This document shows positions 9,502-33,527 of a stretch of 61,799 nt of DNA, one piece after another. The notes beneath the pieces are model-generated. The model worked only from the letters and a program-made list of their open reading frames with translations, was not told the DNA's origin and made no database searches. Position numbers and translations under genes: made by a program. Each line of letters starts with the position of its first letter. Positions within the stretch are counted from its first letter, which is position 1. The stretch is from Patescibacteria group bacterium (GTDB taxonomy: Bacteria; Patescibacteriota; Microgenomatia; UBA1400; MFAQ01): NCBI GenBank assembly GCA_943355005.1, contig CALRDV010000007.1:1-61799 (forward strand), read 5' to 3'.

Positions 9502-10602
9502 ATGCAAAACACAAACCTACTTTTTATCTTCCTCACAGGTCTGACTACTGGAGGTTTAACATGCCTTGCTTTACAAGGTGGACTCCTCACCTCAGTCTTA
9601 GCCAAACGCGAAGAAAAACTAGTCGACAACCTCGCCAGCTCCAAAAAGAAAATCAAGCAATTACAAAATCGTCATTCCGGGCTTGACCCGGAATCCAGAT
9701 CTTCTTCCACCTCCCATCTCCCCATCCTCTCCTTCCTCACAGCCAAACTCTTCATTCACACTGTCCTCGGCTTCTTCCTCGGACTCTTAGGTACCGCCAT
9801 CACCCTTTCTCCCATCACTCGTGGTTGGTTACAAGTCTTTATCGGCATCTATCTCTTTGGTATCGCCGGCAATCTTTTAAATCTGCATCCTATTTTTAGA
9901 TACTTTGTCATCACTCCCCCCAAATTCCTCGCCAGATTAGCCAAGAACGAATCCAAAAGCGATTCTGTTTTTGCGCCTGCCCTCTTAGGACTCATGACCG
10001 TTTTTCTGCCGTGTGCCGTCACTCAAGCTATGGAGGTCGTTGCGGTTGGTACGGGCAACCCTCTCTATGGCGCCGCCATCATGTTTGCTTTTGTCCTGGG
10101 CACTTCCCCCACCTTCTTACTCTTTGGTTTTCTGATAAACAAAACCGGTTCCGTATTTCAGAAATATTTTCCCGCTATCGCCGGTACTGCCATGCTTGGC
10201 ATGTCTATTTACAGTATCAATGCCAGTGCCGGACTCATGGGCTCTGTTTACACCATTCAGAATTTTGTTCAGGCGGCTACTTCTTCTTCTAATCCCGGCT
10301 CCGACACTGGATCAAACTCCATCCTCGGTGATAATCTTCAAACAGCCACCATCACTGTAAACAACACTTCTTACACCCCCAACTCCATCACTTTGAAAAA
10401 AGGTATCCTGACCAAATTGAAATTAATTACAAACAATGTCCAATCATGTTCCCGCTCCTTCACTATCCCCGCATTAAACATAAACAAACTTCTCCCCTCG
10501 ACAGGTGAAACCACCTTAGAATTCACTCCGACAGAAACAGGCCCACTTGCCTTCTCCTGTTCCATGGGCATGTACACCGGCCGCTTCAACATCGTAAACT
10601 AA
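9502..10602 (+). CDS. UreH/DsbD-like membrane protein fused to a cupredoxin domain
   Basis: A 366-residue protein from the ATG at 9502. The frame is open back to 9388, but that stretch is the class D repeat. Residues 1-270 form about six membrane segments of the sulfite-exporter/UreH-like DsbD type (TGLTTGGLTCLALQGGLL; FLPCAVTQAMEVVAVG; FVLGTSPTFLLFGF). Residues about 275-366 look like a cupredoxin with Cys and Met ligands near the end (FSCSMGMYTGRF). Together they suggest copper delivery or export at the membrane. A class B repeat (9670-9698) is translated in the first cytosolic loop as RHSGLDPESR. The gene lies 149 bp after copA. Confidence 0.8.
   Translation: MQNTNLLFIFLTGLTTGGLTCLALQGGLLTSVLAKREEKLVDNLASSKKKIKQLQNRHSGLDPESRSSSTSHLPILSFLTAKLFIHTVLGFFLGLLGTAITLSPITRGWLQVFIGIYLFGIAGNLLNLHPIFRYFVITPPKFLARLAKNESKSDSVFAPALLGLMTVFLPCAVTQAMEVVAVGTGNPLYGAAIMFAFVLGTSPTFLLFGFLINKTGSVFQKYFPAIAGTAMLGMSIYSINASAGLMGSVYTIQNFVQAATSSSNPGSDTGSNSILGDNLQTATITVNNTSYTPNSITLKKGILTKLKLITNNVQSCSRSFTIPALNINKLLPSTGETTLEFTPTETGPLAFSCSMGMYTGRFNIVN
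9670..9698. repeat. Class B palindromic repeat inside the cupredoxin fusion gene
   Basis: CGTCATTCCGGGCTTGACCC then GGAATCCAG; read in frame as RHSGLDPES near residues 57-66, between the first and second membrane segments. Confidence 0.9.
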
Positions 10603-33172: not shown

Positions 33173-33197
33173 TTTATATTAAATCTATCCACTAACA

Positions 33198-33417
33198 AAC
33201 CAACCTTTCGGTTGGTTACTTGGTTGCCCGGCGAGGCTCTGAAATAATTTTCCTCAAAATATTCCTTGCGAAGATTTTGAGATTAGAAAATTAATGAAGT
33301 TTGCCGGAGTCAGTTTCGTAACGAACCTGACGAGGCGGGCACCGCTAACGAAGTAGATCATCGCATTTTAAGCACCAAAAAACCAACCTTTCGGTTGGTT
33401 ACTTGGTTGCCCGGCGA
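33198..33417 (-). repeat. Stable-RNA 3'-end element 1 (at 5S rRNA)
   Basis: A 37-bp perfect direct repeat (33198-33234 and 33381-33417) spans the 5S 3' end plus its terminator hairpin. Between the copies lies a core (about 33238-33340) homologous to 61077-61184 beside tRNA-Ile, with two hairpins: CTCAAAAT...ATTTTGAG (33253-33281) and GTCAG...CTGAC (33309-33331) around a CGTAACG loop. The core also holds an inverted copy of the 5S 3' region (33349-33364 against 33414-33430). It has no ORF. Confidence 0.8.
33379..33400 (-). terminator. rRNA operon terminator
   Basis: Minus-strand hairpin AACCAACC-gaaa-GGTTGGTT followed by TTTT, directly after 5S. A second copy at 33196-33217 belongs to the direct repeat of element 1. 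Confidence 0.8.
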
Positions 33418-33527
33418 TGATCTACTTTCGCAATCAGTTGCCCAATCACTATCATCGACGCTGACCTGTTTCACTTCTCTGTTCGAAATGGGAAGAGGTG
33501 GTTCCAAGTCGCACAGATCACCGGACA
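33408..33527 (-). rRNA. rrf: 5S ribosomal RNA
   Basis: A 120-nt RNA read on minus. The ends pair over about 10 bp (TGTCCGGTGA with TCGCCGGGCA), and the internal CCCATTTCGAACAGAGAAGT is the conserved loop B/C region. It lies after 23S on the same strand. Confidence 0.92.

Follow-up and report, generated by a model that had tools for sequence, protein, structure and literature searches.

A family of gene-free, structured elements at the 3' ends of tRNA and 5S rRNA genes in Candidatus Collierbacteria

We report a family of elements, apparently not described before, that are structured, carry no genes and lie at the 3' ends of tRNA and 5S rRNA genes in genomes of 'Ca. Collierbacteria'. They are probably mobile, integrating at the T-loop of a tRNA gene, or at the equivalent place in 5S, and restoring the gene that they enter. 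The family was recognised from one locus in a 61.8-kb stretch of DNA (the window, by which the whole of the stretch analysed is meant), where an earlier reading of the letters without database searches, hereafter the sequence-only reading, had proposed a tiny element that inserts at the 3' end of an RNA gene and restores it. The proposal is supported by the family as a whole, by empty sites and by the repeats, and the finding is larger than that reading had stated.

Two copies in the window

Behind the 5S rRNA gene, an exact direct repeat of 38 nt brackets 145 bp of DNA (Table 1); the repeat had been described as a perfect one of 37 bp around approximately 146 bp, so that it proved real with both lengths corrected by one. 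It consists of the final bases of 5S and the terminator hairpin, extends to 51 nt at 92% identity, and is the sole exact direct repeat of at least 20 nt with copies no more than 300 nt apart in the whole window. The bracketed 145 bp contained, as claimed, no convincing open reading frame, chance frames of 35–49 amino acids being the only ones. The 5S gene itself is kept intact by the element, its 3' end being the insertion target. The inverted copy of the 5S 3' region (hereafter INV) matched its counterpart at 33414-33430 exactly over 14 nt, and at 16 of 17 positions with one 1-nt gap; it is thus present as described, but is to be understood as a hallmark of the family, corresponding in each copy to the RNA gene that serves as target.

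The stretch 61077-61184, named in the same reading as related, belongs to a true second copy behind tRNA-Ile, near the contig end (61061-61270), whose direct repeat is TTGTGGGCGCTCTTGG (61061-61076 and 61255-61270). The tRNA-Ile 3' region is present in it as an inverted copy, which, together with the tRNA 3' end, forms a terminator-like stem as well. The two hairpins that had been claimed for the core do fold, with z = -2.3 in the 5S copy and z = -3.45 for the whole core of the tRNA-Ile copy; covariation of the hairpin hp1 across copies (below) is more telling. When the two cores were aligned, the stems were kept through paired changes, such as CTT/AAG to CTC/GAG in the hairpin hp2.

Table 1. 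Coordinates of the two copies in the window, and of an apparent integrated island in a related genome
Feature	Position	Strand	Basis
5S rRNA gene, insertion target	33409..33525	-	Rfam RF00001, 82.7 bits
Gene-proximal 38-bp direct repeat (5S end and terminator hairpin)	33380..33417	-	exact match to 33197-33234
INV, inverted copy of 5S 3' region, adjoining the core	33349..33364	-	match to 33414-33430
Core hairpin hp1 (GCC-GGA-stem-CGTAACG-stem-GA-GGC)	33303..33336	+	model R2, 60.1 bits, 1.7e-16 in own genome
Hairpin hp2, found in this orientation of the element	33243..33295	+	fold; paired changes between the two window copies
Distal direct repeat, the original end of 5S with its terminator, now displaced	33197..33234	-	exact repeat; single copy in relatives
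tRNA-Ile (GAT), target of the second copy	61257..61331	-	ARAGORN
Proximal 16-bp direct repeat, tRNA-Ile 3' end	61255..61270	-	repeat comparison
Inverted copy of tRNA-Ile T-loop/T-stem (GACCCCAAGAG on the + strand)	61226..61236	-	sequence comparison, fold
Hairpin hp3 of tRNA-Ile copy	61189..61206	+	sequence analysis
Core hairpin hp1 of tRNA-Ile copy	61144..61178	+	model R2, 50.9 bits, 2.1e-13
Hairpin hp2 of tRNA-Ile copy	61084..61132	+	fold, whole-core z -3.45
Distal direct repeat, displaced tRNA-Ile 3' end	61061..61076	-	repeat comparison
Apparent integrated island L187 (G001, 660-680 kb)	tRNA-Asp fragment, 4302 region; whole tRNA-Asp, 10074-10148		~5.8 kb, integrase gene

Size and distribution of the family

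A first covariance model was made, as had been suggested, from the cores of the two copies in the window; it matched at 15 places, mostly beside tRNA genes, of the genome to which the window belongs. The later model, R2, was built from an alignment of 14 core hairpins (hp1), in which 9 of the 13 base pairs showed compensatory changes and the observed covariation was reached by none of 500 shuffles. With R2, 24 copies were detected in the same genome at E <= 4e-7 (the next match had 0.17), and approximately 104 in the set of relatives, where they were confined to 12 of 54 genomes, all of one family (Ca. Collierbacteria); numbers per genome ranged from 1 to 24 within one genus, and of the near neighbours G014 and G009 the former has 11 copies and the latter none. 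A class-wide search of 373 genomes with R2 returned members of this family only, the other 367 genomes being without matches. From a phylum-wide sample two distant relatives were added, in other families, one behind tRNA-Ile (TAT; L212, genome G622) and one behind tRNA-Arg (TCG; L213:1441-1702, genome G582), which have the same anatomy and a different hp1 loop, GACG and not GTAAC. R2 therefore under-detects, and the element family is probably older and wider than Ca. Collierbacteria. Pattern matches in distant bacteria and in viral contigs were rejected as chance, having low or no R2 scores and no adjoining tRNA. The core matched no Rfam family at gathering score and none convincingly at a relaxed score, in agreement with the reading's failure to recognise a family. 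Short, non-coding, dispersed and present in many related copies, the elements have the properties of miniature non-autonomous (MITE/REPIN-like) elements.

Position and anatomy of the copies

Among 105 copies examined, 65 lay antisense to a tRNA gene, starting 48–67 nt past its 3' end, and 6 more stood beside a tRNA in the opposite orientation; many of the remainder were found after 5S, behind 3' fragments of tRNAs, as distal units of tandem arrays or at contig ends. The target tRNA genes comprise approximately 30 anticodons, to which 5S is to be added. The unit is gene-free, approximately 130–180 bp long, and comes in two arrangements. In the common one (type A) the order on the tRNA strand is whole tRNA, terminator hairpin, INV, hp1, hp3 and displaced tRNA 3' end; in the minority (type B), to which the 5S and tRNA-Ile copies of the window belong, the core is flipped and there is the extra hairpin hp2.

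The complementarity of INV to the tRNA spans positions of approximately -22 to -9, beginning with GTTC in the T-loop and ending near the close of the T-stem. The displaced copy has its start within the T-loop, in most cases at -19 or -18 as counted from the tRNA end. As judged from the sequences, INV can pair with the start of the displaced copy and would thereby close a three-way junction. Tandem G.A mismatches occur in hp1 on the strand that reads GCC-GGA..GA-GGC, and 42 of 102 copies have a tandem-GA hp3, where shuffled sequences gave 0.1; paired changes flank the mismatches at either side. RNA parameters favoured the fold of the GGA/GA strand in 46 of 64 copies, and DNA parameters showed no strand difference (29 of 64).

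Three copies in the genome of the window (L019, L022 and L028, contigs C1 and C5) lie away from RNA genes, inside a dispersed palindromic repeat (GTCATTGCGGGG...GTGGCAATC), and have a longer second hairpin of their own. A separate mini-palindrome resembling CCCGCCTACCGGCGGGCAGG has been inserted repeatedly at the junction of the core and the displaced tRNA end (L054, L061, L079 (3669 copy), L118, L123 and L029).

Arms that match the target

Both target-derived parts of the unit fit the tRNA beside which they stand. INV scored on average 10.0 against its own tRNA and 6.3 against other anticodons, and the displaced copy 13.9 and 6.3, respectively. The comparison was repeated with the 44 copies whose core is at least 80% identical to one at another isotype: INV fitted its own tRNA better in 40, equally well in 4 and worse in none, and the arms therefore follow the target and not the ancestry of the core. 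At tRNA-His the T-stem has GCGGG as its 5' strand and CCCGT as its 3' strand; INV there reads ACGGG, which is complementary to the latter, and is therefore a genuine inverted copy of the 3' strand. The spacer between terminator and INV tracks tRNA isotype (28 of 64 nearest neighbours, 4.4 expected) and the core does so less (14, with 4.5 expected), so that the pattern partly reflects long residence and core exchange, not fresh hops; spacers that track isotype while cores mix point to modular exchange.

The following scheme would fit these observations. The unit would insert in the T-loop of a tRNA after T54-T55-C56, or in the equivalent 3' region of 5S, and would bring a complete 3' end with a terminator, leaving the gene in working order, while the original 3' end would be pushed downstream and remain as the direct repeat. 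A folded single strand, with a three-way junction made of INV and the displaced copy, hp1 and hp3, may be what an enzyme supplied in trans recognises. A simple model of circle integration leaves the change of the carried tRNA end between isotypes unexplained: since one core occurs at different tRNAs with the right arms, plain integration is insufficient, and target copying or later conversion of the arm is needed. Copying or conversion against the new target may thus renew INV and the 3' end when a core reaches another tRNA. It is possible, if somewhat doubtful, that we are dealing with a gene-free mobile element whose target is set by pairing of an arm of 9–14 nt with the T-loop/T-stem of a tRNA (or the 3' end of 5S), and that the arm, carried on a conserved two-hairpin scaffold, is rewritten from each target, so that nearly every tRNA gene could be colonised and would stay functional.

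A different chemistry, copying-in with duplication of the target, shares mobility with this scheme, and where mobility is common ground our confidence in rival explanations overlaps with that in the preferred one. Breaks in the T-loop and downstream of it would be followed by forward copying, giving the direct repeat, and by snap-back, giving INV, the donor contributing only hp1–hp3. Own-target sequence in both orientations in every copy would be explained directly, as would an INV that follows its target in 40 of 44 cases on a common core and is a true inverted copy at tRNA-His, and a few repeats do extend past the terminator and reach roughly as far as INV (64 nt at Gly-ccc, 57 nt at Ser-gga and 38 nt at 5S). 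However, most repeats stop at the tRNA 3' end, the terminator arriving with the insert (tRNA-Gln of genome G004 compared with G007; Pro), and 14 of 16 genomes lack a reverse transcriptase, which leaves this route unlikely.

Evidence for insertion and for loss

Mobility is inferred from the presence and absence of copies at comparable sites and from the repeats. Downstream of 5S, where the sequence-only reading had suggested that relatives be compared, a single 3' end and terminator were found in four genomes (G001, G002, G009 and G015). An ordinary, diverged tandem duplication of 5S, the explanation that it had set against its own, is refuted because of these empty sites and because the core, which is not derived from 5S, recurs after tRNA genes. 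The tRNA-Gln site is empty in genome G007 and occupied in G004, where it is longer by 164 nt; the flank past the displaced copy of G004 is the one that directly follows tRNA-Gln in G007 (52 of 55 positions). Related flanks follow element-free Gln genes in other genomes, and similar pairs of empty and occupied sites were found for Arg-CCG and Pro; in these tRNA cases the terminator comes with the insert. At the Gln gene of G009 the terminator and INV are kept and the core is gone; some of the emptiness is therefore loss, and deletion from one direct repeat to the other could account for some of the empty sites.

Genomes may differ in the core type that they have at a given tRNA, and unlike core types also stand in tandem behind a single tRNA, as at Ser-GCT of the window's genome (G000), where three tandem units have different cores. 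Behind the tRNA-Arg of G582 (L213), two 131-bp tandem units start exactly in the T-loop; the 5 positions at which they differ are confined to their last few bases.

These comparisons also bear on the view that nothing has moved, the copies being an ancestral, vertically inherited 3'-end structure (an extended terminator or processing element) which was lost in places through recombination between the repeats and whose cores were homogenised by gene conversion. Isotype-tracking spacers, the remnant at Gln in G009 and the recurrence in two genera of copies at 5S, at Arg-CCG and at the end of lon would suit it. Yet the native Gln flank of G007 resumes directly past the displaced copy of G004 and has relatives at element-free Gln genes, different cores occupy one tRNA across genomes and in tandem, and 1–24 copies within one genus are hard to fit with an essential structure; we regard it as improbable, and integration at the T-loop with restoration of the gene as the probable course of events.

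Some further loci deserve mention. In three genomes of two genera a diverged copy is situated directly past the stop codon of an apparent lon-type protease gene (L038, L137 and L149), and is therefore probably old and inherited. In L185 (G004:C65) the 5S before a decayed copy apparently has no 3' strand, for which an assembly error or a damaged 5S may be responsible. In the genome of the window, the tRNA-His copy coincides exactly with a break in the assembly (G000 C15:12681-12768 and C11:1-109), which could reflect variation of the site in the population.

Candidate enzymes

The unit encodes no dedicated integrase, and none was found that serves the element. None of the enzymes profiled (tyrosine recombinase, reverse transcriptase, IS110 and Y1) correlated with its occurrence. 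Reverse transcriptase (PF00078), as would be expected with a retroelement or group II intron, was present in only 2 of 16 genomes, which are not the main carriers, and the IS110 transposase (PF02371) of bridge-RNA systems in none; neither is supported as a mobiliser. Nor is Y1/RAYT (PF01797), the transposase of REP/REPIN systems, which is absent from the carriers G002, G012, G013 and G014, although the incompleteness of the genomes makes this absence less telling. In several genomes of the genus a Y1-transposase-like (RAYT-like) gene adjoins a Xer-type recombinase gene (G008:C25:26230-27329, G007:C7:12827-13891 and G003:C17:2715-3804). Inverted pairs of copies 1–3 kb apart were considered as ends of an autonomous transposon and dismissed, each being a separate copy behind its own tRNA, as was L091, where a core at both ends of a contig is a 77-bp assembly overlap around ordinary genes.

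The enzyme acting in trans would be a site-specific recombinase, most likely of the tyrosine type. Such integrases use tRNA genes and T-loops and occur in nearly every genome, with two per genome, and are favoured for these reasons; as genomes without copies have them too, the inference is weak, and we propose a tyrosine recombinase acting on the folded unit tentatively, at somewhat less than an even chance.

That the copies are leftover attachment sites of large tRNA-using elements (prophages, islands) is very improbable. In its favour, tyrosine integrases typically target the T-loop and restore the 3' end (PMC4383910, PMC1762012), and G001 has a tRNA-Asp 3' fragment, with two tiny elements beside it, which approximately 5.8 kb of DNA with an integrase gene separate from the whole tRNA-Asp. 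But remnants would not have one covarying two-hairpin core across dozens of tRNAs, no larger element was found with the core at its ends (inverted pairs being copies of neighbouring tRNA genes), and viral-contig patterns gave chance matches only.

Significance and comparison with known systems

If these elements are what they appear to be, ultra-small bacterial genomes host a gene-free parasite of the order of 100 bp (the unit being ~130–180 bp) at dozens of essential RNA genes, which it leaves unbroken. It has no genes, its core is without an Rfam match, and a search centred on integrases would pass it by. The 3' ends and terminators of tRNAs in these bacteria are often derived from the element, a point of importance to annotation and to work on tRNA processing. 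Should insertion itself write the target-matching arm, the element would amount to an insertion system that occurs in nature, can be retargeted and has no recognised enzyme.

Miniature, non-autonomous elements that target tRNA genes are a kind already known. We know of none that combines this with target-matching inverted arms, and a description of such elements was not found in the open PMC literature. The rtT repeats after tyrT of Escherichia coli resemble the present units in being tandem, non-coding and begun each by a copy of the tRNA 3' end; to our knowledge they belong to one tRNA locus only, and have no common core at other tRNAs and no inverted arm. The bridge RNA of IS110 is likewise a structured nucleic acid with target-pairing stretches, whereas no IS110 transposase was found in the 16 genomes, and direct repeats and restoration of a 3' end are, as far as we know, not part of that system. 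The attC cassettes of integrons are also mobile and very small, and their recognition takes place on a folded single strand with a base left unpaired in the stem; the Collierbacteria element differs in inserting into RNA genes, without a common attachment array.

Elements with tyrosine integrases, such as genomic islands and mycobacteriophage Ms6 (T-loop of tRNA-Ala), have their target in a tRNA gene, often in the T-loop; the incoming DNA rebuilds the 3' end and a displaced fragment marks the far end (PMC4383910, PMC1762012). Insertion inside the tRNA gene, the rebuilt 3' end and the displaced fragment are all found here too, but in a gene-free unit of 130–180 bp, in which a single structured core recurs at dozens of kinds of tRNA and is accompanied each time by the target in inverted form. 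REP/REPIN sequences are miniature non-coding hairpin DNA thought to move with help in trans from RAYT (Y1) proteins (PMC3116915, PMC2817692). The Collierbacteria element is similarly miniature, non-coding, hairpin-based and dispersed; whereas REPs are extragenic and have a short conserved tag, it sits inside RNA genes, between direct repeats and with a match to its target, and several of its carriers lack Y1 proteins.
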